Virus record (IMG/VR): IMGVR_UViG_3300007511_000137
Coordinates: 1 to 25,070 of that record
Source of the DNA: a virus
DNA length: 25,070 nt
Strand: one strand, 5' to 3'
Part shown: positions 4,697 through 23,990 of the stretch, piece by piece
Numbering within the stretch: position 1 is the stretch's first letter
Layout: each line of letters begins with the position of its first letter
Position numbers and translations under genes: made by a program
Notes under the pieces: model-generated
What the model was told of the DNA's origin: nothing
The model's database searches: none
The model's input: only the letters and a program-made list of their open reading frames with translations

Positions 4697-5571
4697 ACCT
4701 TTTCTGCTGCTAGTTTCTGAAAATAATCAAGGTCATCATCAGTTGCTGTTTCTTCAGCAACAGGTTTAGGTGGTGGTGTATAAGGTTGTCCACCATCAAA
4801 TGGAACCTCTTCTTGTTTAGGTTTAAATTCTGAACCCAAACCAAGTACACGATCTAACTTTGTCTTCAAATCTTCATAAGACTTGAACTTATCTGGACCT
4901 ACCAATTCTTTAAGAGAATGTTGAGTTTTCCAGATTTCTTCCATACGAGTATCATCGTCAAGGACTGCTGAAGGGGATTCAAACTCCGACTTATCATAAT
5001 TGGAATAACCCTCAACTTTACGAATCTTCATCTTGAAGTTCGCACCTTCCCAAAAATCAAAAGGATTTATTGGTGACTCATCTTCAAATTCAGGATTCAT
5101 CACATCATTAATCTTATCAAAGATTTTCTTTCCGTAACGGAAGAGTTTTACCTGTCCTTCATTTTGAGGATTAGCAGGATCTTTGATAATGTAAACATTT
5201 GAGGTATAGTTCAACCTACGTTTCTGTTTACGGGCAATCTCTTTGTTTGCCTCAATACCAGAGTTCCAAAGTTGTGAGTTGTGTTCACTCACAGGGTCTT
5301 TCTGCCCAAGAGTTGTCAGAGAGTTTTCAATATACCAGCCACCTGGCCCCTGAAAACCATGATTCCAAATACGTGCCCAAGGCAGTTCTTCACCATCTGG
5401 AGCCGGAAGAAATCGAATGATGGCATAACCATTACCTGACTTGTCCAATTCTGGACGCCAGTAGCGTTCATCTGCATCACCGAAATTACTAGGGTTGGAA
5501 ATTTTTTCAGTCTCTTTGATTAGAGATGAAAGATCTGACTTACTACGTTTCTTCATATCTGCAAACGACAT
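4693..5571 (-). CDS. 32: Single-stranded DNA-binding protein gp32
   Basis: The 292-residue product is the T4 gp32 type ssDNA-binding protein. It coats replication intermediates and helps recruit the replication and recombination machinery. Family features seen are a basic N-terminal segment (MKKRSKSDLSSLIKETEK), the core block YWRPELDKSGNGYAIIRFLP, WARIWNHGFQGPGGWYIENS, and an acidic C-terminal tail (ETATDDDLDYFQKLAAE). In T4, one His and three Cys after this block bind zinc. Here the matching stretch (GQKDPVSEHNSQLWNSG) has no cysteine, so the zinc site is absent, as I recall also for cyanophage gp32. The gene is last on its operon after gp33, has its own strong promoter, and meets the tape measure gene stop to stop. 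The ATG follows AAAGGAAACT. Confidence 0.93.
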   Translation of the reverse strand: MSFADMKKRSKSDLSSLIKETEKISNPSNFGDADERYWRPELDKSGNGYAIIRFLPAPDGEELPWARIWNHGFQGPGGWYIENSLTTLGQKDPVSEHNSQLWNSGIEANKEIARKQKRRLNYTSNVYIIKDPANPQNEGQVKLFRYGKKIFDKINDVMNPEFEDESPINPFDFWEGANFKMKIRKVEGYSNYDKSEFESPSAVLDDDTRMEEIWKTQHSLKELVGPDKFKSYEDLKTKLDRVLGLGSEFKPKQEEVPFDGGQPYTPPPKPVAEETATDDDLDYFQKLAAEKV

Positions 5572-8966: not shown

Positions 8967-9194
8967 TTATTTCTTCTCTACGAATTCATACAACTCAGAT
9001 GCCTTCTTCTTAATATCATCAATGGTGTAAGATTCAGGTTGAAGTTCTTTCCATAACTTCATATTTGCATCACCTTGAGCTTTTGCATCATCCCATGCTT
9101 GATACATCATATTTTCAGATCTGGCATAATTATCACTAAGATAACTTTGTGCCATCTCTAAAAGTTTAAATCGTAGTTCAAATGGATTAGACAT
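8967..9194 (-). CDS. Unknown small helical protein
   Basis: This 75-residue, almost wholly helical protein (MSNPFELRFKLLEMAQSYLS, ending ASELYEFVEKK) has a pattern I associate with conserved small proteins of T4-like marine phages. No function is known to me. The ATG has AAAGGAAATT upstream. It is the first gene after the tmRNA terminator, so it either has its own unseen promoter or depends on read-through. Confidence 0.7.
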   Translation of the reverse strand: MSNPFELRFKLLEMAQSYLSDNYARSENMMYQAWDDAKAQGDANMKLWKELQPESYTIDDIKKKASELYEFVEKK

Positions 9195-9224
9195 AATTTC
9201 CTTTCTATGTGTGTGTTATGTGTG

Positions 9225-9262
9225 TATTAAAAATGAGGGTCTTCTGTTCCCAAGTGACCCTC
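9225..9262 (-). terminator. Terminator-like hairpin at the 3' end of the tmRNA gene
   Basis: On the - strand GAGGGTC (9256-9262) pairs with GACCCTC (9235-9241) across a 14-base loop and is followed by ATTTTTAATA. This is a plausible intrinsic terminator for the tmRNA transcript. The same helix could instead be the last helix of the coding piece. Confidence 0.55.
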
Positions 9263-9278
9263 TGTACTCGGCTATCGG

Positions 9279-9332
9279 TTATGCTGCAAGAGCATAATAT
9301 TCCGATGCAGAAATATAATCGTTATTATCTGC
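9279..9332 (-). CDS. tmRNA degradation-tag reading frame
   Basis: The frame starts at the resume codon GCA (9330-9332) and ends with TAA (9279-9281). It encodes ADNNDYISASEYYALAA. The C-terminal YALAA is the form recognised by ClpXP/ClpAP in many bacteria. It is translated only by trans-translation, without its own start codon. Confidence 0.88.
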   Translation of the reverse strand, partial: ADNNDYISASEYYALAA

Positions 9333-9424
9333 GATTATGTTTAATTGGACTTTTTTACAACTGTACCTATGTTGGATACCTCCCCAACTGCCGTCACAAT
9401 CAATCGAATTCCCGAACATCCCCA

Positions 9425-9511
9425 TCATACGAGCACAAATTCAAGACCCCAAATAAGTAAAATAGCAATTCCAAATACTGCAAATGCTATGGTAATTTCT
9501 CGCGCGTCCAT
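9425..9511 (-). CDS. 28-residue membrane peptide in the tmRNA spacer
   Basis: An ATG at 9509-9511 opens a 28-residue frame starting MDAREITIAFAVFG and ending WGLEFVLV. It has a charged N-terminus and then one continuous hydrophobic helix. It fills nearly all of the sequence between the tmRNA halves, and its TGA ends 2 bases before the 5' base of the coding piece. The upstream AAGAG is only a weak ribosome-binding site. A second 28-residue membrane peptide of similar build lies at 17231-17317. It may be chance, since the spacer is short, but a clean membrane helix with a start codon is suggestive. Confidence 0.45.
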   Translation of the reverse strand: MDAREITIAFAVFGIAILLIWGLEFVLV

Positions 9512-9583
9512 CTGATGCTCTTATGGTGGAGATGGGCGGAGTCGAACCGCCGTCTTAACTGCTATCCAATTGTATCATCAGTA

Positions 9584-10237
9584 TCATGAATATTTAGTAA
9601 TCACCTGTCTCAGTGGCTCTATCCACCTCTCTTTCGTTTCTCTGAACAGCAGAGGTTCATCACCTTCTACTGCCATAATTATTACAATATCGTTTATGGA
9701 GATTCCAGTAAGTTCTTCATAAGCATATGCATAGAAAGCTCCTTGCATGAAATAACTATGACACATTTCCCATGTCTTTCTTTTTCTGGAAGTCTTATAA
9801 TCTATGACTGATAGTTTCTCATCAAACTCACCTATCAAATCCGTTCTTCCAGCAACACCCAAGTCATCTGAAAATAATGCACCCTCAACCACATGAATGT
9901 TATCTATTCTATCTAAAAGTGGCACAATAGAATTAAACATTTCTATTGCGTCTGGTAACTCACCCTCTAATATCCCGACTTGGTTCTGGATATACGACTC
10001 ACAGATATTATGTACGCGGGTGCCTCTACTGCTAGCCTGTCTACTAATCTTGTTGGCCTCTGCCTCACCAACCCTTCTTCTCCATTCGATAATTCCTTGC
10101 TTGGAGAGGTTGCCGAGTAGCGTTGTAATGCTAGGGTACTTATTGCCTTGAGTAGTGACATAATATCTCTTCCCTTCAATGTTTTCAGTTTTTAAATCTT
10201 TAAGGTCATTACCCACATGATTAAAAGTTTTCATCAT
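9584..10237 (-). CDS. PD-(D/E)XK (RecB/Cas4-like) exonuclease
   Basis: The 217-residue protein carries the PD-(D/E)XK nuclease core: RGTRVH at 71-76, Glu119 in VVEGALF, GRTDLIG at 130-136 and VIDYKTS at 144-150. Asp133, Asp146 and Lys148 are the metal-binding/catalytic set. YFMQGAFYAYAYEE, with the conserved glutamine, is the QxxxY-type motif of the RecB/Cas4 subfamily. This points to a DNA exonuclease for recombination or end processing. The start ATG overlaps the previous stop (TGATG). It ends right where the tmRNA acceptor piece begins. Confidence 0.85.
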   Translation of the reverse strand: MMKTFNHVGNDLKDLKTENIEGKRYYVTTQGNKYPSITTLLGNLSKQGIIEWRRRVGEAEANKISRQASSRGTRVHNICESYIQNQVGILEGELPDAIEMFNSIVPLLDRIDNIHVVEGALFSDDLGVAGRTDLIGEFDEKLSVIDYKTSRKRKTWEMCHSYFMQGAFYAYAYEELTGISINDIVIIMAVEGDEPLLFRETKERWIEPLRQVITKYS

Positions 10238-10900: not shown

Positions 10901-11094
10901 ACGAATGCCTCCACAGCTTCTTCAACGAGTCTAGCTTCATCCTTCGCGAATCGGTATCCCTCTTCATAGGAACGAGCAGTTTCTTCTCGCATCATAGAAG
11001 TCAGTTCACTGGCAGCTTCTCTCAATGATTCCCCTTCCATCCATCGGGAAAGGACCGACATCACTCTCTCTTCATAACTCATAACAATTCTCAT
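10897..11094 (-). CDS. Unknown small helical protein
   Basis: The frame gives 65 residues from ATG 11092-11094; an inner ATG at 11080-11082 (MSYEERVMSVLSRWMEGESL) is equally possible and neither has a strong ribosome-binding site. The protein is acidic and helical, with many Glu and Arg residues, and looks like a coiled-coil or helix-bundle protein. It is the first gene behind the promoter at 11124-11152 and is coupled to the next gene by ATGA. Confidence 0.6.
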   Translation of the reverse strand: MRIVMSYEERVMSVLSRWMEGESLREAASELTSMMREETARSYEEGYRFAKDEARLVEEAVEAFV

Positions 11095-11123
11095 TAAGGT
11101 TACTCAATCATCATTACAATAAT

Positions 11124-11152
11124 ATAATAACATGGGATTGTCAGATTGTCAA
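11124..11152 (-). promoter_or_regulatory. Sigma70-like promoter
   Basis: TTGACA (11147-11152), 17 bp, TATTAT (11124-11129) on the - strand. It lies just after the cell-wall hydrolase gene and starts the transcript for the 65- and 101-residue proteins and probably the FmdB and exonuclease genes. Confidence 0.7.
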
Positions 11153-11153
11153 G

Positions 11154-11783
11154 TTAAAAGCTAAAATTATTTCTCTTTTTATAGAATATGTGTGTGTCAA
11201 TCCTCACCAATTTCTTTTTCTGATATGCCCATTTTGGATATTTCTTCATCCAATCTGCATGATAATGAGTAGCACAATCTGTAATATCTAACAGACTTGG
11301 TGTACGAATGACATACTCAGCTATATCTTGTGAATCTCTCCACGCTTTCGTTGGTCTTGGTTCATCACCCTTTCCATCACAGTACCAACTAAATTGGCAT
11401 CTATCTCTTACTGGAAAACCATTTGAATGATGTTTACCTTCATAAACCACTTTACAAATTGAGTCTGGATAATATTGTGACCTTACTCTGTTTATGGTCA
11501 CTTGTGCTACTGCTATTTTTCCTGCAGTTGATTCTATCGCAGCTTCAAAATAAATATTTTTTGCTAGACACTCCTTTTCTTTGGGGTCTATCATCGGTTC
11601 CAAGTTTCTCAGATGGTCATTTAAATTTACCATTTCGGCTGTTCTACTTGCAACCTCTTCTTTGTAGATACCAGGCACCCAGTTATCACTCACTGGAGGC
11701 ACCCATATCTCGTTTGTTTGGGCTGTATTCACGCTTGTTGCAGTCAATAAAATGAGGCCCAACATTAGGATGAATTTCTTCAT
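11154..11783 (-). CDS. Secreted SleB-type cell wall hydrolase
   Basis: The 209-residue protein begins with a signal peptide: MKK, a hydrophobic stretch FILMLGLILLTA, then a likely cleavage near NTA|Q at residue 21. The rest carries a Hydrolase_2 (SleB/CwlJ-like) domain from about residue 65: KNIYFEAAIESTAGKIAVAQ with likely catalytic Glu80, VTINRVRS, CQFSWYCDG, and a His-rich end (ATHYHADWMKKYPKW). SleB-type enzymes cleave peptidoglycan. With a Sec signal this could be the phage endolysin, exported without a holin channel, or an enzyme that remodels the wall. No holin or spanin is recognisable nearby. The ATG has AGAGGA upstream. Confidence 0.87.
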   Translation of the reverse strand: MKKFILMLGLILLTATSVNTAQTNEIWVPPVSDNWVPGIYKEEVASRTAEMVNLNDHLRNLEPMIDPKEKECLAKNIYFEAAIESTAGKIAVAQVTINRVRSQYYPDSICKVVYEGKHHSNGFPVRDRCQFSWYCDGKGDEPRPTKAWRDSQDIAEYVIRTPSLLDITDCATHYHADWMKKYPKWAYQKKKLVRIDTHIFYKKRNNFSF

Positions 11784-12126: not shown

Positions 12127-12539
12127 GGCAATAATTCTGGAAATGTTTCTTTTATAAGTTTATAAGTTAAACCTCTACATTTAATTTTTTTATCTTTAAT
12201 CTGTAGAAGTAATTTTGCTTCATCATCATGAATACTTTCTAATAATTCAATAAACAAATACTCTCTCCTTGCAGGTTTGAGATTTGGATTTCCACCCTCA
12301 ACAAACAAATACAACTTCCTTAAAAGTCCATACAAGTAGGTTGGATTCTCTGAATCATCAACTACTGTTTTGTATGGTGGGTCACCTGACGGAAGCAGGA
12401 ATTTGATTTCTGGATGAAAAGCATATTTAAGTATCTCCATTAATGGAGTTGACCTATACTTTAATAATAATTCTTTCTTCTCTTTTTGACTTTTAGCCTT
12501 GTCTATCTCTGAAAAGATTATTGGAAAACCTTTAGTCAT
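12123..12539 (-). CDS. Conserved T4-like phage protein (DUF6433-like)
   Basis: The pattern of this 138-residue protein is one I associate with a conserved family of T4-like marine phages (DUF6433): STPLMEILKYAFHPEIKFLL, then PSGDPPYK, then LYLFVEGGNPNLKPARREYL and LLESIHDDEAKLLLQIKDKK, ending LTYKLIKETFPELL. The family assignment is from memory. It always seems to sit beside DNA replication genes, and here it follows RNase H with TAATG overlap. The function is unknown; a link to replication is inferred from position only. Confidence 0.75.
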   Translation of the reverse strand: MTKGFPIIFSEIDKAKSQKEKKELLLKYRSTPLMEILKYAFHPEIKFLLPSGDPPYKTVVDDSENPTYLYGLLRKLYLFVEGGNPNLKPARREYLFIELLESIHDDEAKLLLQIKDKKIKCRGLTYKLIKETFPELLP

Positions 12540-13378
12540 TATTCAAACTCTTCAATATGTTCCATTAAATTTTTCAATCGTTTCTCAATAAAGTACTCCA
12601 TGAGCCTACCATGTTGCGGAGTCTGCTCTTTGTACTGATTGATTATATTTATACAAATTGTTTCTGGAGTTTTTGATAAATCCACCATCGTTTCATTACG
12701 ATTGAAGTTTCTGTGCATCTCATCAGTCCATGTAGACCTATCTGTTTTCCACAATTCCATCTTCTTTTTGGTTATCGGTCTCTGCCGTTTACCCTCTGTA
12801 ATCAGAGTATCATCGGATGAAAGTATATTCGGCACACCATCTCCAACATCACCCTTGATACATTTTTCCCAAAGTGATTCTTCTGGATTACCTCTTACAA
12901 AATCCTTGATCAAGGGCGACCATTGTTGTACCCCTTGATATTTCTGTAACTGAATGAAGTCCTTATCGCTTGAGATAATAAGAGTTGGATTTGTTGCCAC
13001 ATAATCATTCAATACAGCAATAATATCATCAGCCTCAGCACCATCTACCTTCATTACTTTGTAGGGAAAGTAGTTGCGAAGGTCTTCAATCATCTGGTGT
13101 AGAAAATCAAACAAAGATTGCCAATCTGTGTCATCCTCTGCTCTTCTTTTCTTCCGATTTGCTTTGTACTCTGGAAAAGATTCCTTTCTCCAATTCTTGT
13201 ACGAATCACAACATATAACAAGACCACCAGTATCGTAGATATACCGATGTGTTTGTTTGTATTGTCTAATTGTGTTTAATACAGTATGGCGTAAAAGGTC
13301 TTCTTCAATGACCAGCTGACCTCTTGACATTGCCATGAAGCTGCCGATCATTGTTTGACTGAAATCTAGCAGGATCAT
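12539..13378 (-). CDS. rnh: T4-type RNase H (5'-3' exonuclease, FEN family)
   Basis: The 279-residue protein matches T4 RNase H, which removes RNA primers and some adjacent DNA from lagging-strand fragments. The acidic metal-binding residues of the FEN/PIN-like fold are visible: Asp5 in ILLDFSQ, Asp in VICCDSYKNWRKE, DGAEADD, and SSDKDF, followed by CIKGDVGDGVPNILSSDDTL, the helix-hairpin-like block typical of the family. The length is close to the T4 protein (305). In T4 it works with gp32, whose gene lies further along this strand. Its ATG overlaps the end of the glycosyltransferase gene. Confidence 0.9.
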   Translation of the reverse strand: MILLDFSQTMIGSFMAMSRGQLVIEEDLLRHTVLNTIRQYKQTHRYIYDTGGLVICCDSYKNWRKESFPEYKANRKKRRAEDDTDWQSLFDFLHQMIEDLRNYFPYKVMKVDGAEADDIIAVLNDYVATNPTLIISSDKDFIQLQKYQGVQQWSPLIKDFVRGNPEESLWEKCIKGDVGDGVPNILSSDDTLITEGKRQRPITKKKMELWKTDRSTWTDEMHRNFNRNETMVDLSKTPETICINIINQYKEQTPQHGRLMEYFIEKRLKNLMEHIEEFE

Positions 13379-17230: not shown

Positions 17231-17317
17231 TTATAATGAAAAAGCAATTACTGTTACAACATACCAAAGACCCAAAGCAAAGGTCCAACCAACTATTCCT
17301 TCAACAACTGAAATCAT
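17231..17317 (-). CDS. 28-residue membrane peptide
   Basis: An ATG at 17315-17317, with GAGAGGTGAT directly upstream, opens a 28-residue frame starting MISVVEGIVGWTFALG and ending VVTVIAFSL. It is one hydrophobic helix with a single Glu. The same GAGAGGTGATATG context starts the SprT-like gene, which supports real translation. It lies 9 bases before the next gene. The small size and single helix fit a regulatory or holin-like membrane peptide, but no function can be assigned. Confidence 0.6.
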   Translation of the reverse strand: MISVVEGIVGWTFALGLWYVVTVIAFSL

Positions 17318-17355
17318 ATCACCTCTCTTACAATCAACATTAATAACTGTCCCAT
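17314..17355 (-). CDS. 13-residue leader peptide overlapping the membrane peptide
   Basis: The shared promoter leader (ACCCTTTTCGGAGAAAGTT) ends at an ATG (17353-17355) for MGQLLMLIVREVI. Its TGA overlaps the next ATG (ATGA). In the other cassettes this ATG position is the true gene start, so the peptide may be translated and coupled to the 28-residue peptide, or it may be a remnant. Confidence 0.35.
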   Translation of the reverse strand: MGQLLMLIVREVI

Positions 17356-17394
17356 AACTTTCTCCGAAAAGGGTTTCTCTCACTCAACAAATAT

Positions 17395-17423
17395 ATTATC
17401 TCATAAAGACGAATCATTGTCAA
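17395..17423 (-). promoter_or_regulatory. Early promoter, cassette type
   Basis: TTGACA (17418-17423), 17 bp ending in TGA, GATAAT (17395-17400) on the - strand. The leader carries TGAGTGAGAGA and CCCTTTTCGGAGA, as in the other cassettes. The -35 box contains the stop codon of the preceding gene (17420-17422). Confidence 0.8.
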
Positions 17424-17512
17424 GTCTTTTTTTCTTTGAGATATTTTTTGTAATGCTCAATATCCTTTTTAAGACAATGATTAAACCTTGGGTCTTTTGG
17501 GTCAAAATCCAT
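17420..17512 (-). CDS. 30-residue basic peptide
   Basis: ATG 17510-17512 lies one base after the stop of the 44-residue gene (TAATATG), with AAGGATGG just upstream. The product starts MDFDPKDPRFNHCLKKDIEH and ends in lysines. A longer in-frame reading starting further upstream would overlap the 44-residue gene in another frame and is rejected. Confidence 0.55.
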   Translation of the reverse strand: MDFDPKDPRFNHCLKKDIEHYKKYLKEKKT

Positions 17513-17513
17513 A

Positions 17514-17648
17514 TTATTTCCATCCTTCACGAGCCATGTCGGCAAGTTCGATACGGGCCTCTTCTTCGACCGCAAGTTCATCAATGTAAGTGAGGACTTC
17601 CTCATCACTCATATCCTCACCAATCCAACCCATAAGTTCAATTTCCAT
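17514..17648 (-). CDS. 44-residue acidic protein
   Basis: ATG 17646-17648 to TAA 17514-17516. The product MEIELMGWIGEDMSDEEVLT, continuing through an acidic helix (ELAVEEEARIELADMAREGW), is typical of small acidic phage proteins. AGAGGATAT precedes the ATG. It sits in line with its neighbours with only 7 bases to the gene before it, which supports it over the overlapping frame. Confidence 0.6.
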   Translation of the reverse strand: MEIELMGWIGEDMSDEEVLTYIDELAVEEEARIELADMAREGWK

Positions 17649-17655
17649 ATATCCT

Positions 17656-17889
17656 CTATTCAATATGTTCAACAATTACCATGTCCCTATCTTCGGGCAG
17701 GTCAATCCATCTCCACTCTGACCTGCGGGATTCTTCCAAAGGAATCACACAAACCTTTGTGGTAAGTAGTGGAGAGTCAGCACCATCAACATTGATGACT
17801 CGCCACATATCACCATTCTCACGAATACGATTCTTACCATGTCTGGTCTTACCAGCAAGTCTCAAATGATTTCCAACAAAAACTTTCAT
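17656..17889 (-). CDS. Unknown small protein
   Basis: The 77-residue protein begins MKVFVGNHLRLAGKTRHGKN and is probably a small beta-barrel (alternating hydrophobic residues, WRVINVDGADSPLLTTKVCV, WRWIDLPEDRDMVIVEHIE). I do not recognise the family. The strong site AGGAGAGTGAT precedes the ATG. Confidence 0.7.
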   Translation of the reverse strand: MKVFVGNHLRLAGKTRHGKNRIRENGDMWRVINVDGADSPLLTTKVCVIPLEESRRSEWRWIDLPEDRDMVIVEHIE

Positions 17890-17890
17890 A

Positions 17891-18064
17891 TCACTCTCCT
17901 AATTCATCAATTACCATTACCAAACGACCTTCAAAACTTGAAGACTCTGATTCCAATCTTTTAATCTCACTAATGGCCCACTCACGAGCCAAGTCAATAG
18001 AATGGAAAATACACATACCTGTCATTGACAACCAACCATCTAATTTAACAATCACTTTCCACAT
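17891..18064 (-). CDS. Unknown small protein, first gene of a cassette
   Basis: The product is 57 residues from ATG 18062-18064 (MWKVIVKLDGWLSMTG). An in-frame TTG four codons upstream lies inside the ribosome-binding site GGAGATTGAT and is rejected, because in every sister cassette the ATG after GGAGATT is the start. The protein seems to be a small alpha/beta fold. One base separates it from the next gene. Confidence 0.7.
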   Translation of the reverse strand: MWKVIVKLDGWLSMTGMCIFHSIDLAREWAISEIKRLESESSSFEGRLVMVIDELGE

Positions 18065-18102
18065 ATCAATCTCCAAAAGGGTTTCTCAATCACTCAGGTA
18101 AT

Positions 18103-18131
18103 AGTATCTCATAGGCGAGGGTCACTGTCAA
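18103..18131 (-). promoter_or_regulatory. Early promoter, cassette type
   Basis: TTGACA (18126-18131), 17 bp ending in TGA, GATACT (18103-18108) on the - strand. The leader (CCTGAGTGATTGAGAAACCC, then GGAGATTGATATG) is almost identical to that of the promoter at 20733-20761. The preceding gene's stop codon lies in the -35 box. Confidence 0.82.
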
Positions 18132-18328
18132 GTAGTTTTTTCAAAAAAGTTTTCTTTTATTTCGGCATCTGTCTCATGGCCACAATGGGGGCAGAAGATA
18201 TATTTTCCAGCCACTCCCCAAGTCAATGTTGTCTGATTGAAGTCAGGTGTTAAAGTCTGACTCCACCAGTTCTTGCATTTACCACAGTTGAAGTGGTAGA
18301 GCACCTCAACTGTGAATTCATGACTCAT
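18128..18328 (-). CDS. Small zinc-ribbon protein
   Basis: The product is 66 residues with two CxxC pairs, Cys15/Cys18 (FNCGKCKN) and Cys46/Cys49 (FCPHCGHE), the layout of a zinc ribbon. It likely binds nucleic acid or a protein partner; no specific role can be given. The start overlaps the previous stop (ATGA) and the stop is in the next promoter. Confidence 0.75.
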   Translation of the reverse strand: MSHEFTVEVLYHFNCGKCKNWWSQTLTPDFNQTTLTWGVAGKYIFCPHCGHETDAEIKENFFEKTT

Positions 18329-18525
18329 AATGTCCGCTCTTCAAGAGCTTCAATCTGTTTCTTACTGCCTGGGTCTTCCACGGCAGTCAAATCAACATTG
18401 TTACTCTTTGGGACTCTCACACCATAAGTCTGAAATCTCCAATCAGGCCCATCTGGTAACTTGGTTACCTTACCACCATCAGCAAAGAATCTTACCATGG
18501 CTTCGTTAATTTCACTTCTTGTCAT
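18325..18525 (-). CDS. Unknown small protein
   Basis: The product is 66 residues from ATG 18523-18525 (MTRSEINEAMVRFFADGGKV). This start has GAGAG upstream; an in-frame GTG six codons earlier is less likely. A short helix, GGKVTKLPDGP, then a beta segment and an acidic end are visible. It overlaps the previous gene by 14 bases and the next by 4. Confidence 0.7.
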   Translation of the reverse strand: MTRSEINEAMVRFFADGGKVTKLPDGPDWRFQTYGVRVPKSNNVDLTAVEDPGSKKQIEALEERTL

Positions 18526-18688
18526 TTTGATACTCTCTGACACAGGCTTCCGCCTCGGTTATTGTTTTGAAGAAACCACCACCCATTTCTTCACCATCTT
18601 CATACTCACGCACGAAGTACTCTCCTGCAGTGCGAGAACCAAACACAGTCTCGCCCTCATGCAGAATCTCAATTGTCGCCGTTTTCAT
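18512..18688 (-). CDS. Unknown small protein
   Basis: The product is 58 residues from ATG 18686-18688 (MKTATIEILHEGETVFGSRT), chosen because AAAGGAAAA directly precedes it; a longer in-frame start lies inside the gene before. It is a probable beta-hairpin plus helix (FFKTITEAEACVREYQNDKK). It overlaps the previous gene by 20 bases and the next by 14. The function is unknown. Confidence 0.68.
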   Translation of the reverse strand: MKTATIEILHEGETVFGSRTAGEYFVREYEDGEEMGGGFFKTITEAEACVREYQNDKK

Positions 18689-18827
18689 TTTTCCTTTCTT
18701 TGGCTTCTCGTTTCTTTTCCATGTAACGCTCACGTTTAGTTTTAGTTCTACCTACATCATAAGTACCTTCATTGTAGGAATCCCAAAACAAAAATGCCTG
18801 ACTTTCTACTTTCGTCTTTTCACTCAT
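18669..18827 (-). CDS. Unknown 52-residue basic protein
   Basis: ATG 18825-18827 to TGA 18669-18671. The ATG overlaps the stop of the previous gene (ATGA). The product begins MSEKTKVESQAFLFWDSYNE and ends in a long basic helix (KRERYMEKKREAKERKNENG). Without it there would be a 90-base hole in an otherwise overlapping gene string, which supports it. Confidence 0.62.
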   Translation of the reverse strand: MSEKTKVESQAFLFWDSYNEGTYDVGRTKTKRERYMEKKREAKERKNENGDN

Positions 18828-19141
18828 ATTGCAAGTTCCCTTTCAATTGCTTTCAATACACGTTTTGAGCCACCGCTCTTCTTCATTTCAAATGTGCCAG
18901 ACTTGAGAGCACTTATAGCCCCAACTCCACCACCATCAGTACCCCAAACCGAACCCGGCTCGGTCATAGGAAGCAAACTGAGTATTTCATAATACTCCAT
19001 ATCACACTCTACAAAATCTTCCATACTACCAACAGCAAAATGTTTGGTAATACAGAGGACACCACCTCTGACATTAACTGCCCAGTTCAACTTCTCAGCA
19101 GTTTCCAGAAGTTTGACTGCTTTCTCACTAGCTTTACTCAT
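18824..19141 (-). CDS. Unknown protein
   Basis: The 105-residue protein has an N-terminal helix MSKASEKAVKLLETAEKLNW, a central alternating segment, a glycine-rich turn (WGTDGGGVGAISALKSG) and a basic C-terminal helix. No family is recognised. GGAGATTGTT stands before the ATG. It lies second in the cassette behind the promoter at 19491-19519. Confidence 0.7.
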   Translation of the reverse strand: MSKASEKAVKLLETAEKLNWAVNVRGGVLCITKHFAVGSMEDFVECDMEYYEILSLLPMTEPGSVWGTDGGGVGAISALKSGTFEMKKSGGSKRVLKAIERELAI

Positions 19142-19150
19142 AACAATCTC

Positions 19151-19447
19151 CTATAGAGTAGTGTACATTCCAGTATGGGATTCAAAAATACGGACTAACA
19201 TATCATTATAAACATTGTCGTATGTCTTGACTGACTTCATCTCACCCATCTTGGTGAGCTTGGCGAAGGTGACATCATAAAGGTCAAGTCCATTCAGACT
19301 GACTTCCATGAAGTTCGCATTGGTCTTGTTACGACCAATTCGCATACGGATACCATTTTCAGTTGAAACCATCATCTTGGCTCCTGTCATAACTCTGAAC
19401 CTGTTTCCGCCGAGTTGTCTGAAAATTTCATTCGCTATGTGACTCAT
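19151..19447 (-). CDS. Conserved small phage protein of unknown function
   Basis: The 98-residue protein contains GGNRFRVMTGAKMMVSTENG and RIGRNKTNANFMEVSLNGLD with LYDVTF, a beta-rich pattern I associate with a widespread phage hypothetical protein. The function is unknown. The start is fixed by the cassette leader (GGAGATTTGATATG). Confidence 0.75.
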   Translation of the reverse strand: MSHIANEIFRQLGGNRFRVMTGAKMMVSTENGIRMRIGRNKTNANFMEVSLNGLDLYDVTFAKLTKMGEMKSVKTYDNVYNDMLVRIFESHTGMYTTL

Positions 19448-19490
19448 ATCAAATCTCCAAAGGGGTTAATGTCTCTCTCACCATGATTAT

Positions 19491-19519
19491 ATTGTCTCAA
19501 ATTTGACCATCATTGTCAA
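19491..19519 (-). promoter_or_regulatory. Early promoter, cassette type
   Basis: TTGACA (19514-19519), 17 bp ending in TGA, GACAAT (19491-19496) on the - strand. The leader has GGTGAGAGAGACATTAACCC then GGAGATTTGATATG. Confidence 0.78.
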
Positions 19520-19523
19520 GTCT

Positions 19524-19970
19524 TTATTTTCTGACATCATATTCAGGATATTCATAATAGAATGAATTCTTTCTCAACTTCTGAGATTTTTTAGTCCATC
19601 GACAGCCACATTCACAATGACCTTCCAGTTCAAAACCTCTTCTATGTACCAGATAGGATTTTCTGGATTTAATATCTTGTCGATGAACCTTTCCATCTTT
19701 CCGAATTCTCATCGGTTCTTTCCAGAAAGAATCAAGATAGTCATATCCCCAATCAACACTCAGACCTTCTTCACCATATCTCTTAGGAAAATGAGAATCG
19801 GCTACACCTTTCAGTTGAGACGCAAACCTTTCCCCATGTTCATCAGAGGCTTCTCTGAGAATTACCATAGGACTTTCAACCTCAAAGTCATAATCTTCAT
19901 CGTAATGATAGTATTCCAACTCAGGGTCAGTTGCATATCTCATACGATTTACATATTCAATTTTTTCCAT
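19524..19970 (-). CDS. Unknown acidic protein
   Basis: The product is 148 residues from ATG 19968-19970 (MEKIEYVNRMRYATDPELEY), preceded by AAAGGAACATT; the longer in-frame reading runs into the untranslated leader and is rejected. The first half is very acidic and tyrosine-rich (YHYDEDYDFEVESPM); the second is basic and carries HCECGCRW near residue 125, perhaps a small metal site. The function is unknown. Confidence 0.7.
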   Translation of the reverse strand: MEKIEYVNRMRYATDPELEYYHYDEDYDFEVESPMVILREASDEHGERFASQLKGVADSHFPKRYGEEGLSVDWGYDYLDSFWKEPMRIRKDGKVHRQDIKSRKSYLVHRRGFELEGHCECGCRWTKKSQKLRKNSFYYEYPEYDVRK

Positions 19971-20063
19971 AATGTTCCTTTCGATAGGATTGAAGAAAAG
20001 CAGTTTTGAGTTTCGATTTGTTTTTTTGTAAAAATTTCTCTCTCTCTGGGCGGTCGTACTGCT

Positions 20064-20094
20064 CCCCCACCCCCCACTGACGGAGGGGCTCCGT
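20064..20094 (-). promoter_or_regulatory. G-rich leader with a tight hairpin
   Basis: On the - strand, ACGGAG-CCC-CTCCGT (20080-20094) forms a 6-bp hairpin and is followed by runs of six and five G separated by one T (20064-20075). It lies in an untranslated leader of about 145 bases, against 35-45 in the other cassettes, and has no ATG. A role in RNA stability or translation control is possible. Confidence 0.4.
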
Positions 20095-20120
20095 TTTATT
20101 CTCACTCACTCAACAGTTAT

Positions 20121-20148
20121 ATAATAACATAGTATAATAAAGTGTCAA
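20121..20148 (-). promoter_or_regulatory. Sigma70-like promoter
   Basis: TTGACA (20143-20148), 16 bp, TATTAT (20121-20126) on the - strand. It lacks the TGAGATA box of the cassette promoters but the leader starts with GTTGAGTGAGTGAGA. It drives the 148-residue gene. Confidence 0.7.
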
Positions 20149-20155
20149 GACTTTT

Positions 20156-20341
20156 TTAGCCAGTTAATTGGCTGAAAAATCTGATTGGCCAGTTTTTCTT
20201 TGCTTCCTCAGCACATTTCTCAGAACATGCATAAACCATCTCTTCTCTACAGTTCCAGAAGTCTCCAATATCAATTTTACATTCATCTTTATTAAAGACT
20301 TTCTTACAACCATTACAGATTCTTTTGTCTGGCCAAACCAT
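20156..20341 (-). CDS. Small cysteine-rich (zinc finger-like) protein
   Basis: The product is 61 residues from ATG 20339-20341 (MVWPDKRICNGCKKVFNKDE), which overlaps the previous stop (TAATG) and has AGGAG upstream; an in-frame start six codons earlier is less likely. Cys9/Cys12, Cys21, Cys31 and Cys39/Cys43 (YACSEKCAEEA) suggest a treble-clef zinc site. The function is unknown. Confidence 0.72.
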   Translation of the reverse strand: MVWPDKRICNGCKKVFNKDECKIDIGDFWNCREEMVYACSEKCAEEAKKNWPIRFFSQLTG

Positions 20342-20694
20342 TACAGAGCTCCTGTCCAACGCACTCGGTCAAAAGACCTTTCCAGTACATTTCCTCTTCG
20401 GAAGTTTCTGGCCGGAGCCTTCCAACCAGCAGGCTTCAGAATGTCACCAAACTCAAACTTCTTATCATTCTCACAGGCGACAACGAAAGCACAAACTGAT
20501 TCGTTTGTGACTACCTTGACATATTTCTTACCCATATAGTAGGTAAGTGAAGCGTGATACTCATTACACATTCGCTTCTTGATTGGGTCATCGGTTTTCA
20601 TCCACTCACGATAACTATCGTTCATGTGGTCTAACATAGCGTCAAGACCTTCTACTAACGCTTCAACTTTTTCACCATCTATACTTACGGCCAT
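20341..20694 (-). CDS. Conserved small phage protein of unknown function
   Basis: The product is 117 residues. After a helical N-terminus (MAVSIDGEKVEALVEGLDAM) comes KYVKVVTNESVCAFVVACEN, then FEFGDILKPAGWKAPARNFR and RVRWTGAL. I recall this second block from many T4-like phage hypothetical proteins. The start is fixed by the cassette leader (GGAGATTGAAATG). Confidence 0.75.
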   Translation of the reverse strand: MAVSIDGEKVEALVEGLDAMLDHMNDSYREWMKTDDPIKKRMCNEYHASLTYYMGKKYVKVVTNESVCAFVVACENDKKFEFGDILKPAGWKAPARNFRRGNVLERSFDRVRWTGAL

Positions 20695-20732
20695 TTCAAT
20701 CTCCGTTAGGGTTTCTCAATCACTCAGGTAAT

Positions 20733-20761
20733 AGTATCTCACGGCAAGATACCATTGTCAA
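20733..20761 (-). promoter_or_regulatory. Early promoter, cassette type
   Basis: TTGACA (20756-20761), 17 bp ending in TGA, GATACT (20733-20738) on the - strand. The TGA of the TGAGATACT box (20739-20741) is the stop codon of the preceding methyltransferase gene. The leader matches that of 18103-18131 over more than 25 bases. Confidence 0.82.
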
Positions 20762-21602
20762 GTCTTTTTTTAAAAATAAGCAACTCTTCATGGATTCTTA
20801 CAGTTTTTCGTTTATTCCAGAGTTTCAGTCTGGAAGGTGCTGTTCCCATAGGTTTCTTGATTATCACCTTGTCATATAAACTCAAACCAGCATCTTCGCC
20901 ACATCTTATCATATCTGAAACAAAAGGAACCAACCGATTTATCAACTTACGACCTTCAGAATAATCTCTGAAATCTGCCACTACAAAACAACAATACGAT
21001 TCTTCATACATCAGAGAAGAACATTTTGAATACACACGGCCCATCTCTACAAGAAAATCAGCATAATTAGATATGGCGCTCATATCATTATCCTGTTCAG
21101 AGTATGTTTCCAGATTCCAGTAAGGTGGGCATGTGAATATCAAATCAAACTTCTTATCAGACTCAAACTCTCTGCAATCCATGTTCAATACATTGACTTC
21201 ACTCGTTTCAAATAAAGCATTAGTGTTCAATATATTGTTTATCTTATCACACTCATCTTTTCTAACTTCACATCCAGTATAGTTGTAGTCAAGTATTTTT
21301 GCCACATAGGGTCTGACTACAGAACTGAAAGGGTCAAAGATAGTGCCGTTCTTCGGACAGTATGAAGAGTAGACCATCTTACAAAGTTTTGGATTGAAGT
21401 AACTTGTGGTTGCAGTGTAGGCTGTATTTTCACCAGCTCCACCAAAACTCTTTAGAGTATTTTCTCTGGTGGATTTACCCTGTCTTTCTTTGAGGTATTT
21501 TAGGATAGGATTTGAAAACTTTGGGTCATCGCTTTCCCAAATAGAATATGGAATCATGCCGTAAGTAGACATGAAATCCACTCGTTCATATTTCTCACTC
21601 AT
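20739..21602 (-). CDS. DNA methyltransferase-like protein (N4/N6 amino type)
   Basis: The product is 287 residues from ATG 21600-21602 (MSEKYERVDFMSTYG), which overlaps the previous stop (ATGA); a longer in-frame start is inside that gene. The S-adenosylmethionine site is IFDPFSSVVRPYVAKIL at about 88-104 with GCEV; the catalytic motif is TCPPYW at 157-162, the form (S/T)xPPYW typical of N4-cytosine and some N6-adenine enzymes. A C-terminal block (EELLIFKK) closes the fold. No restriction partner is adjacent, so it is an orphan enzyme, probably for protecting phage DNA. The target sequence cannot be read from the protein. Confidence 0.83.
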   Translation of the reverse strand: MSEKYERVDFMSTYGMIPYSIWESDDPKFSNPILKYLKERQGKSTRENTLKSFGGAGENTAYTATTSYFNPKLCKMVYSSYCPKNGTIFDPFSSVVRPYVAKILDYNYTGCEVRKDECDKINNILNTNALFETSEVNVLNMDCREFESDKKFDLIFTCPPYWNLETYSEQDNDMSAISNYADFLVEMGRVYSKCSSLMYEESYCCFVVADFRDYSEGRKLINRLVPFVSDMIRCGEDAGLSLYDKVIIKKPMGTAPSRLKLWNKRKTVRIHEELLIFKKRLDNGILP

Positions 21603-21835
21603 CTGATGCCATAGGCCCTGGCCAAAGTTCCATAGTCCTTGTATCCTAATCTGGACCATTTAGCAAAACCTTCTCTACCCAACTCCCAGAATACACGCCT
21701 ATTTACAGCCAGTTGGATTCTGTTCGTCTCTGCGATGTGTTCTGCATTTGGTTGGAGTTTTGGTGTGACCTTGGCACCTTTGTTCTTCAGTACATTCAGA
21801 CGCCAAAAGAATTGTTTGTTGGACTTGAATTTCAT
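21599..21835 (-). CDS. Unknown basic protein
   Basis: The 78-residue protein begins MKFKSNKQFFWRLNVLKNKG and is helical and basic throughout (NRIQLAVNRRVFWELGREGF). It could bind nucleic acid. The ATG overlaps the stop of the 58-residue gene and its stop overlaps the methyltransferase start. GAGGTG lies upstream. Confidence 0.68.
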   Translation of the reverse strand: MKFKSNKQFFWRLNVLKNKGAKVTPKLQPNAEHIAETNRIQLAVNRRVFWELGREGFAKWSRLGYKDYGTLARAYGIR

Positions 21836-22008
21836 ATTTCTAATTCACCTCTGTCAATTGCTTCAATCGCACGAACACGAAACTTGGCACGTTCTACAAT
21901 AGACATACCCTTCTCTCTCGCAATCTCATCAATACGAGACTCTAACCTTGCCTTCTTTGAGGCCAGATGAGCCTTAGCGATACCTTCTACAATTTCTAAT
22001 TCTCTCAT
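21832..22008 (-). CDS. 58-residue helical protein
   Basis: ATG 22006-22008 to TGA 21832-21834, coupled at both ends by ATGA overlaps, which makes the frame convincing. The product MRELEIVEGIAKAHLASKKA and REKGMSIVERAKFRVRAIEA is nearly all amphipathic helix and charged. The function is unknown. AAGGG lies upstream of the ATG. Confidence 0.65.
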   Translation of the reverse strand: MRELEIVEGIAKAHLASKKARLESRIDEIAREKGMSIVERAKFRVRAIEAIDRGELEI

Positions 22009-22265
22009 AATGTAAACCCTTCCTTAATAATGTTAATTTTCTCATGGAGAGTCAAAGCCTCTCCCTTCTCTATACATTCAAAAGCAGCATTGTTCTCAAG
22101 TAACTTAATCTTGTTTACCAGTTCCCACTTGGTTCTTCGGGCACCATCAAGGTCACTTTCCAGAACAGCGATTCGGGAACACACATCTATCAAATCATCG
22201 TTGGCCATTTCCAACATTATGTCACGTTTACCACGATTGTAATCATTCATTTCTTTTTCCGTCAT
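22005..22265 (-). CDS. Coiled-coil protein of unknown function
   Basis: The 86-residue protein starts MTEKEMNDYNRGKRDIMLEM. A heptad pattern runs through SRIAVLESDLDGARRTKWEL and VNKIKLLENNAAFE, so it is likely a dimeric coiled coil. The ATG has GGAGACCGC upstream and overlaps the previous stop. The partner is unknown. Confidence 0.7.
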   Translation of the reverse strand: MTEKEMNDYNRGKRDIMLEMANDDLIDVCSRIAVLESDLDGARRTKWELVNKIKLLENNAAFECIEKGEALTLHEKINIIKEGFTL

Positions 22266-22465
22266 GCGGTCTCCATTGTCAAATGAGGATAAACCTCAAA
22301 TTCACTATCGAAAAAGTTAGCCATTCGTGAACAGCGAACCTCAACCCACTCACCAGTATAGTCTTTAAAAGTCTTGACACCATACTTGGTCAACCACTCA
22401 AGACCTGCCTCTAAACTCTCAAGACCAGTTTCGTACTCAATAAACTCTTTTTTTACCATTCCCAT
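22262..22465 (-). CDS. Unknown small protein, first gene of a cassette
   Basis: The product is 67 residues from ATG 22463-22465 (MGMVKKEFIEYETGLESLEA), as set by the cassette leader GGAGATTGAATATG; the in-frame TTG two codons earlier lies in the leader. The protein is mixed alpha/beta and acidic, with WLTKYGVKTFKDYTGEWVEV in the middle. No family is recognised. Confidence 0.7.
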   Translation of the reverse strand: MGMVKKEFIEYETGLESLEAGLEWLTKYGVKTFKDYTGEWVEVRCSRMANFFDSEFEVYPHLTMETA

Positions 22466-22507
22466 ATTCAATCTCCGAAAGGGTTATTGTCTCTCTCACT
22501 TGACTAT

Positions 22508-22536
22508 AGTATCTCAAATTTTGGAGTCAATGTCAA
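22508..22536 (-). promoter_or_regulatory. Early promoter, cassette type
   Basis: TTGACA (22531-22536), 17 bp ending in TGA, GATACT (22508-22513) on the - strand. The leader reads CAAGTGAGAGAGACAATAA, CCCTTTC, then GGAGATTGAATATG. It starts the run of five overlapping genes down to the methyltransferase. Confidence 0.82.
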
Positions 22537-22544
22537 GAAAAAAA

Positions 22545-22847
22545 TCACGCCTCCAAATGGGCAATTCCATCTTTCTGCATTCCCTGTTCCGACCAACGAA
22601 CCTCACGACCAATTGCGTCAGAGATGGCTCTCTCAAAACCAGAGTCAGTATAGATTGTCCAATCAGCGTCATGACGAACATAGACATCAAAGTAGTGAAA
22701 CTCATCAATATCATACTCACGAATGGTAATTGACTCTATTGAAACAATCTCATCAGCCCCAGAAGACTTTCTCCAAAGGGAATCACCACTCAGGGACACA
22801 GCAATTTTTGACTCAATAATTTTTTCTGTTTCGTTTCGTATTGTCAT
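22545..22847 (-). CDS. Unknown protein
   Basis: The product is 100 residues from ATG 22845-22847 (MTIRNETEKIIESKIAVSLS), which has GAGAG upstream and lies 11 bases after the previous stop; a longer reading would overlap that gene. A beta-rich middle (SIESITIREYDIDEFHYFDV with YVRHDADWTIYT) and an acidic helix are visible. No family is recognised. Confidence 0.68.
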   Translation of the reverse strand: MTIRNETEKIIESKIAVSLSGDSLWRKSSGADEIVSIESITIREYDIDEFHYFDVYVRHDADWTIYTDSGFERAISDAIGREVRWSEQGMQKDGIAHLEA

Positions 22848-22858
22848 ATTGATTCTCT

Positions 22859-23221
22859 CTATGAATTCATTAACATTCCATATTCTGACCAATAATGCTT
22901 CTTCTCTCTTGAATAAACATTATGTTTTTTGATATTCCATTTCTCAATCACAGGTTCACCTTCTTCATCTTCATCCATAAGAATATAGACTACAGTTTTC
23001 AGAACCCGTGCCATACGAAATCCTCTGTCCATTTTCCAAGGGGTAGTTACCCAGACTCTATGAATATACTGTGCCCTCAAACCATAATCAGCATATGCTA
23101 TCCAATCTTCTTCCTTGGCTTCTGAATATTCAAAAAGATTTCCTGTTTCCTTTTCCTCAAAGGAACCTATAATCGAACTGTCACCTACATTAAAATAAGT
23201 ACTAGAATCAGCGAATGCCAT
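22859..23221 (-). CDS. Unknown protein, first gene of a cassette
   Basis: The 120-residue protein starts MAFADSSTYFNVGDSSIIGS and continues with an acidic, aromatic-rich core (EEDWIAYADYGLRAQYIHRV) and TVVYILMDEDEEGEPVIEKW. The beta-strand pattern suggests a small barrel. The function is unknown. The start is fixed by GGAGATTTGATATG in the leader. Confidence 0.7.
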   Translation of the reverse strand: MAFADSSTYFNVGDSSIIGSFEEKETGNLFEYSEAKEEDWIAYADYGLRAQYIHRVWVTTPWKMDRGFRMARVLKTVVYILMDEDEEGEPVIEKWNIKKHNVYSREKKHYWSEYGMLMNS

Positions 23222-23268
23222 ATCAAATCTCCAAAAAGGGGGTTATTATCTCTCTCTCACTTGATTAT

Positions 23269-23297
23269 ATTATCTCAAATGCTGTAGTCATTGTCAA
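23269..23297 (-). promoter_or_regulatory. Early promoter, cassette type
   Basis: TTGACA (23292-23297), 17 bp ending in TGA, GATAAT (23269-23274) on the - strand. The leader has CAAGTGAGAGAGAGATAATAA then GGAGATTTGATATG. The stop codon of the SprT-like gene (23294-23296) is within the -35 box. Confidence 0.82.
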
Positions 23298-23809
23298 GAA
23301 GAAAAATCAAATTCTTCTGAAATGCTTTTCCAAAAGGATAGAAAGGAAATCAACAGCCCTTTCTCTCTACCATAGGCTTCGATTTCATAGGGGAGTTCAA
23401 AATACTCTGTCAGAGTATCTACGACATGATGGACACCGCGGTAGCAGAGTCCTTCTCTTCGTATGGATAATTCACCCATTACATACTGTTTAACGTGTAC
23501 CAGTTCATGGGCCAGAGTCTTGAGTACTTCGTGTGCCCATTCTGTAGTATCTCGTTTACGCCCGTAGTTATCTACTTCGAGGCGATGATGGTCAATCATT
23601 ACTCTGAAATGTCTAGGCCGATACGGATTGGCATCTCTATCAATCATCGCCTCTCCCTCTGCAGAGTGATGTCGAAAATGTACATCAATCGAAAGATTGT
23701 TTCGTAATCGTTTGGATTCTACCAGACGGGCCATGGCAAACTCGACCATGCCGTAGAGGGCCATTCTGAATTCAGTACCGAAATTTCTACTGTGAATTTT
23801 GACTCGCAT
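23294..23809 (-). CDS. SprT-like zinc metalloprotease
   Basis: The product is 171 residues from ATG 23807-23809 (MRVKIHSRNFGTEF), set by GAGAGGTGAT directly upstream. It carries the zinc/catalytic motif HELVHVKQY at 101-109 (HExxH variant H-E-L-V-H) and a downstream LPYEIEAYGRE block like the E-x-x-A-Y region of SprT/Spartan-type proteins. In cells Spartan proteases cut proteins crosslinked to DNA; in bacteria and phages the role of SprT proteins is poorly known. No zinc-ribbon tail is seen, so this is the short form. It ends in the next promoter. Confidence 0.83.
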   Translation of the reverse strand: MRVKIHSRNFGTEFRMALYGMVEFAMARLVESKRLRNNLSIDVHFRHHSAEGEAMIDRDANPYRPRHFRVMIDHHRLEVDNYGRKRDTTEWAHEVLKTLAHELVHVKQYVMGELSIRREGLCYRGVHHVVDTLTEYFELPYEIEAYGREKGLLISFLSFWKSISEEFDFSS

Positions 23810-23838
23810 ATCACCTCTCTCTCTCATTGTTGAGTCTT

Positions 23839-23867
23839 ATTATCTCATACTAACGAATCGTTGTCAA
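23839..23867 (-). promoter_or_regulatory. Early promoter, cassette type, for the SprT-like gene
   Basis: TTGACA (23862-23867), 17 bp ending in TGA, GATAAT (23839-23844) on the - strand. The leader is short and goes from CAACAATGAGAGAGAGAG straight into GTGATATG, without the CCCTTT/GGAGATT part. The -35 box lies within the coding end of the previous gene. Confidence 0.8.
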
Positions 23868-23990
23868 GTCTTTTTTTTGCTGTGGTGGTGGTGGGTCTTT
23901 ATCGTAATCTGCAGGACACATATTACGCTCATAGCGGGCTAGTTCTTTAGCAGTCATAGTCTTGGGATGTTCTCGTAAGATTATGACCAT
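23850..23990 (-). CDS. 46-residue protein of unknown function
   Basis: ATG 23988-23990 (MVIILREHPKTMTAKELARY) has AAGGAAG upstream. An alternative ATG 45 bases earlier would overlap the previous gene and has no ribosome-binding site. The end is proline- and lysine-rich (DPPPPQQKKDLTTIR). The final codons run through the next promoter. Confidence 0.6.
   Translation of the reverse strand: MVIILREHPKTMTAKELARYERNMCPADYDKDPPPPQQKKDLTTIR

Follow-up and report, generated by a model that had tools for sequence, protein, structure and literature searches.

Small genes in a plastic region of a marine T4-type phage are headed by a repeated cassette of about 80 bp, found in a 25,070-base virus record (IMG/VR record IMGVR_UViG_3300007511_000137, positions 1 to 25,070; hereafter the window). 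The repeated unit consists of the stop codon of the upstream gene, an A-rich tract, a promoter, a leader and a ribosome-binding site (RBS). Among related viruses, changes of gene order and content concentrate at these cassettes, which is supported by the comparisons described here. The best explanation is probably that the cassettes act as crossover sites at which modules of small early genes are shuffled. A preliminary description of the window had noticed seven near-identical copies of promoter and leader and proposed that they serve gene exchange. Its observation is confirmed, and its interpretation is supported with three corrections, concerning the modules headed by the cassettes, the stop codon at the upstream edge and the one-ended nature of many exchanges.

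Anatomy of the cassette

The pattern TTGACA-N14-TGAGA(T/C)A(A/C)T is matched exactly seven times in the window, every copy lying on the minus strand; dinucleotide-shuffled windows yield 0.01 matches on average and at most 1. All seven promoters described before were recovered. In 7/7 cases the distance from TTGACA to the -10 box is exactly 17 bp ending in TGA, and the -10 box reads GATAAT at 17395, 23269 and 23839, GATACT at 18103, 20733 and 22508, and GACAAT at 19491. The cassette promoter comes close to the sigma-70 consensus and has an extended -10 box, and the leader behind it is purine-rich with AACCC. That most copies share the leader holds for AACCC, present in six of seven cassettes (the exception being 23839), and for GGAGATT, present in five (17395 has GGAGAAA, 23839 has GAGGTGAT). 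The exact sequence GTGAGAGAGA is found in three of the seven leaders (19491, 22508 and 23269), and those of 18103 and 20733 have GTGATTGAGAAACCC in its place. Two pairs of segments are close enough to be called repeats: 18062-18111 and 20692-20741 with 92% identity across 50 nt, and 22490-22544 and 23251-23305 with 87% across 55 nt.

Three features had been overlooked in the first reading. An A-rich tract, AAAAAAGAC in several cassettes, lies just 5' of TTGACA; the -35 box often overlaps the stop codon of the preceding gene, T[TGA]CA; and the window holds two weaker copies (20155-20097 and 11154-11080), detected by a profile built from the seven and iterated on relatives. Read along the coding strand, the unit runs from the A-rich tract through promoter and leader (30-50 nt) to GGAGATT-(n)-ATG; 44 copies give the consensus AAAAAAnACTTGACAnTGTnnnnnnAATTTGATATAATATAAnTnnnnGATTGAGAnTAACCCTTTCGGAGATTnGATATG. 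Conservation is strongest at the functional positions, namely the -35 box, the -10 box and GGAG. This would fit a purely regulatory repeat, the main rival explanation, according to which the cassettes are alike since the same host polymerase and ribosomes read each of them; they would mark module borders that tolerate rearrangement by any mechanism and have no special role in recombination. That cassette borders coincide with transcription-unit borders points in the same direction. We nevertheless consider this explanation unlikely, given the position of the breakpoints and the likeness of cassettes within a genome described below.

Recurrence in related viruses

Core genes are present in the window, which is part of a T4-type genome: a gp32-type single-strand DNA-binding protein is encoded at 4693-5571 (E 1e-117), and an exonuclease family match lies at 12539-13378. 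The gp32 shows up to 58% identity to that of cyanophages, marine cyanophages being the nearest isolates, and a near-exact DNA search of phage isolates with the window gave no match. The window is a genome fragment, and a cassette census of the whole genome was replaced by longer contigs of relatives, that is viral contigs found by scans with promoter patterns and several early proteins (L222, L105 and L211 are the same contig).

A search of the relatives with a motif model, as suggested in the preliminary description, revealed 139 copies of the cassette profile in 37 loci (early-gene regions totalling 0.5 Mb, window included), compared to 0 copies in the reversed sequences. The coding strand carries 137/139 copies; the other two both come from the opposite strand of L209, a locus whose orientation is uncertain. 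The profile yielded 1 copy in 719 kb around the gp32 genes of T4-type relatives and 0 copies in the tested stretches of T4 (145-169 kb) and of cyanophage S-T4 (10 kb). On a 53-kb contig all seven cassettes are located in the final 12 kb (41.9-53.4 kb), and on a 117-kb contig they lie mostly at 92-114 kb with few elsewhere, e.g. at 21-24 and 39 kb.

Gene order and breakpoints at cassettes

Relatives carry the small genes in strongly permuted order, the strand always remaining the same. Between one and six genes form the module behind a cassette, and the earlier statement that each small gene has its own cassette is therefore too strong. The gene at 19447-19151 is found directly behind a cassette in 7/9 relatives; certain other genes are never placed in this way. 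When only cases with both genes present were counted, adjacency was kept across cassettes in 0/8 cases compared to 24/44 within modules (p = 0.005). The distance cut-off behind this count treats g28-g29, a non-cassette pair separated by 235 bp in the window, as broken and so biases it against the conclusion. For orthologous genes at a DNA identity of at least 78%, the upstream 150 bp are homologous in 7/53 pairs behind cassettes and in 61/96 pairs without one (p = 2e-9); counted by genome pairs, 15 are for and 3 against. Among relatives, gene order and content thus change far more often at cassettes than elsewhere. Neither of the two outcomes that would have spoken against the preliminary description, absence of the cassette elsewhere and lack of gene exchange at these sites among relatives, was observed.

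Individual modules illustrate this behavior. Cassette 6 and the gene at 18064-17891 moved as a pair relative to the neighboring genes in L207 and L208. In L207 this gene sits with its cassette after, not before, the neighboring gene, and the spacer of its cassette is nearly the same in both loci (GTGACCCTCGC). The DNA methyltransferase gene at 21602-20739 is missing from the corresponding junction in L222 and represents a module which some relatives carry at a cassette junction and others lack.

Breakpoints inside cassettes can be located at base resolution, in line with the proposed role of the repeated promoter and leader as an exchange site, and three exchanges were resolved to the -10 box or the RBS/ATG. 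L237 and L265 share an identical sequence from the -10 box through the leader of one cassette, with 96% identity of the gene behind it and unrelated sequence upstream; at another cassette the same two loci agree almost completely in the upstream gene and the promoter, and differ in the leader and the gene start. The window and L222 carry different genes in the place of 19970-19524, the exchanged stretch running from the RBS/ATG after one cassette copy to where the leader of the following copy ends. The 34 cassette-led gene pairs at a DNA identity of at least 82% have some events in common and do not count as independent. Two of them are collinear, and the other 32 lose upstream homology in or at the cassette: 10 each in the spacer or -10 box and in the leader, 5 each at the 5' edge and at intermediate positions, and 2 at the RBS/ATG. 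Seven further pairs show the mirror image, with the upstream side kept and a different gene behind the cassette. Breakpoints inside the cassette, and not just at its outer edge, argue against a merely regulatory repeat.

Besides the shared events among these pairs, the following points weigh against cassettes as crossover sites. The 5' limits of homology blocks fall in cassettes of both genomes in 42/129 cases, compared to 0.4 by chance. This result favors such sites, but the count is inflated by the fact that cassettes resemble one another and align anyway, which is why the single resolved cases matter. The 3' limits fall in cassettes of both genomes in only 4/125 cases; many exchanges therefore have one end elsewhere, and that 3' ends lie mostly outside cassettes agrees with a regulatory repeat, as does the possibility that module borders tolerate rearrangement better than operon interiors. 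Finally, L222 carries at 3096-3958 a two-gene insertion relative to the window that lies at a non-cassette junction.

One gene of this insertion is HNH-like, with a Pfam score just under the cut-off, and several insertions have a left-hand junction at a stop or start codon that lacks a cassette. Both observations would suit a process in which genes are moved by illegitimate recombination or homing endonucleases, selection retaining only those outcomes that place a working promoter at the junction. The HNH-like insertion does not lie at a cassette, no recognized endonuclease was present in the exchanges examined at cassettes, and up to 50 nt of shared sequence are found at breakpoints, which makes this route quite unlikely. 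About 50 bp of homology is enough for recombination in T4 (PMC4177764), which corresponds to the length range of the cassettes found here.

Likeness of cassettes within a genome

We also compared cassettes of different genes within and between genomes. Leader similarity is 0.659 within a genome and 0.616 between genomes, and similarity of the 14-nt spacer 0.613 and 0.566, respectively; the differences are small in size, and 0/1000 label shuffles reach them in either case. Leader and spacer positions without function are thus also more alike within a genome, which speaks against a purely regulatory origin of the likeness. The same holds for the mosaic composition of cassettes, in which one spacer occurs with various leaders and one leader with various spacers.

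Two cassettes of L240, at 1174 and 1500, lie 326 bp apart in front of different genes and have identical spacers and leaders with 88% identity. Judged from this likeness the pair appears to be a recent duplication or conversion.

Upstream edge and stop codons

The upstream reading frame ends between -60 and +32 of the -35 box in 70/87 cassettes, the commonest position of the stop being the TGA inside TTGACA (14/70). A deletion in L207 relative to L222 fuses the upstream gene to the cassette, and TTGACA provides its stop codon. In 49/90 cassettes all three frames are closed by a stop within 40 nt, compared to a mean of 29 and a maximum of 42 in shuffles; the promoter consensus itself may account for this excess. 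We tentatively suggest, as a possibility we regard as somewhat doubtful, that the cassette might be a two-sided socket for gene acquisition, with a quick stop at the 5' edge, a host-type promoter in the middle and an RBS with start codon at the 3' edge. A crossover anywhere in the approximately 80 bp would then leave two working genes, and homogenization within a genome would keep the cassettes of each phage recombining with one another.

Stem-loops and comparison to known systems

PeSL cassettes were reportedly described by Arbiol et al. in 2010 and Comeau et al. in 2014. The preliminary description had departed from this model in proposing a unit of promoter and leader without a stem-loop, and this departure was borne out. 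Terminator-like hairpins are found near 2/84 cassettes compared to 3/84 random places, with none near the seven window cassettes, and folding of the leader is no better than that of shuffled sequences (mean fold z -0.11). A stem-loop as part of the cassette was therefore rejected.

PeSL units are promoter(early)-stem-loop cassettes of T4-type phages, as cited in PMC4503421 and PMC4177764. The system shares with them an early-type sigma-70 promoter repeated near-identically among small genes of a plastic region (here seven exact and two weaker copies) and gene shuffling among relatives at the repeats. It differs in that it has no stem-loop or terminator, that the repeat spans the 5' leader, the RBS and the ATG as well as, upstream, the stop codon of the preceding gene, and that the -35 box is TTGACA instead of the T4-type GTTTAC. 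The cassette thus lacks the stem-loop part of the PeSL definition, and its behavior is PeSL-like. A strict PeSL identity of the cassettes, with early promoter and stem-loop terminator, is highly improbable in view of the hairpin and folding results, even though the kind of phage, the kind of region and the promoter as repeated part agree.

T4-like early promoters carry GTTTAC in the -35 region (PMC1524935). This type was absent from the window promoters, 7/7 of which have TTGACA. In both systems novel small open reading frames are preceded by numerous promoters for the host polymerase; there the promoter is what is described as conserved (PMC1524935), here it is promoter, leader and RBS. The SAS and ESAS repeats of Cluster K mycobacteriophages likewise contain an RBS and lie beside the starts of unrelated genes, nearly in one orientation throughout and in group-specific versions (PMC3203893). 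SAS is only 13 bp long, a tie to promoters is not described for it, and ESAS adds an inverted repeat (PMC3203893). The 13-bp sequence GGGATAGGAGCCC was not found beside the starts, where the cassette consensus reads TAACCCTTTCGGAGATTnGATATG. Boundary sequences proposed for phage mosaicism are also short conserved sequences at module borders serving homologous recombination (PMC3029335). Those are rarely identifiable at mosaic borders, whereas here a multi-copy cassette is present within a genome and across relatives.

Position of the cassettes in the window

All cassettes and genes listed here are on the minus strand. Cassette 1 (23807-23874) has the A-tract, a promoter at 23867-23839 with GATAAT and a short leader without AACCC that ends in GAGGTGAT-ATG. 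It leads the gene of an HExxH protein (23809-23294), which found no relatives when used as search query; the gene upstream of it (24035-23850) has its stop codon in the promoter spacer. Cassette 2 (23219-23302; promoter 23297-23269) has AACCCCC and GGAGATT in its leader, holds the stop codon of the preceding gene in its -35 box (T[TGA]CA) and heads the gene at 23221-22859. Cassette 3 (22463-22541; promoter 22536-22508) heads the genes from 22465-22262 onward to 21599. The 3' end of the N6/N4 DNA methyltransferase gene (20739-21602) lies inside the promoter (20761-20733) of cassette 4 (20692-20770), which heads the gene at 20694-20341. Cassette 5 (19445-19528) has its promoter with GACAAT at 19519-19491 and heads the gene at 19447-19151; cassette 6 (18062-18140; promoter 18131-18103) heads the gene at 18064-17891. 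In cassette 7 (17359-17432; promoter 17423-17395) the first ATG, 17360-17358, opens a reading frame of 13 codons. Within 17360-17236 this frame is followed by a small hydrophobic one, MISVVEGIVGWTFALGLWYVVTVIAFSL, which by eye is possibly a membrane peptide.

The weaker copy at 11080-11154 has TTGACA, a TTATTAT-type -10 box and the leader GATTGAGTAACC...GAGAATTGTTATG; it heads the gene at 11082-10897 and has a syntenic counterpart in L222 at 11413. The other weaker copy (20097-20155), with TTGACA-16-TATTAT at 20148-20121, is followed by a conserved non-coding element and then by the gene at 19970-19524, which is swapped in L222. This highly conserved G-rich element, GGAGCYCCTCCGTCAGYGRGGRRTGNGGGAGNAGYACGACCGCCCAG, lies at 20090-20020 on the minus strand and has 9 distinct homologs with little covariation. 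Reading it as a leader peptide was rejected, as TAG is in frame in 4/9 homologs.

Two further non-coding elements were noticed on the minus strand of the window. At 14577-14388 a perfect sigma-70 promoter (TTGACA-17-TATAAT) is followed by a candidate structured RNA of about 150 nt. It has 8 homologs in related loci (window included), compensatory changes in 12/22 predicted pairs, an invariant core GTCCTTCAGCT and no Rfam match. The region 9188-9616 encodes a permuted (two-piece) phage tmRNA with the tag ADNNDYISASEYYALAA (ARAGORN; Rfam RF04321, 93 bits), which is also present in the relatives L222, L241 and L244 (Rfam) and L290 (ARAGORN).

Proposed mechanism and significance

The ~80 bp repeat forms the border between small early-gene modules, early timing of the promoters being presumed from the sequence. 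Phage homologous recombination of the UvsX type, fed by the recombination-dependent replication of T4-type phages, would cross over between cassettes of the same or of co-infecting genomes and thereby swap, add or remove a gene or gene group. We infer recombination between cassettes as the cause of shuffling from the sequence comparisons. An incoming gene would at once obtain a host-readable promoter and a working RBS, the upstream gene would still end at a stop codon, and repeated exchange would keep the cassettes of one genome alike.

The cassette bears on the question of how T4-type phages trade small early genes without loss of expression. A well-defined border repeat in dozens of uncultured relatives, together with base-resolved breakpoints, makes it a testable idea that regulatory repeats guide gene exchange. 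It also offers a means to locate module borders, and hence candidate early genes, in unannotated marine phages.

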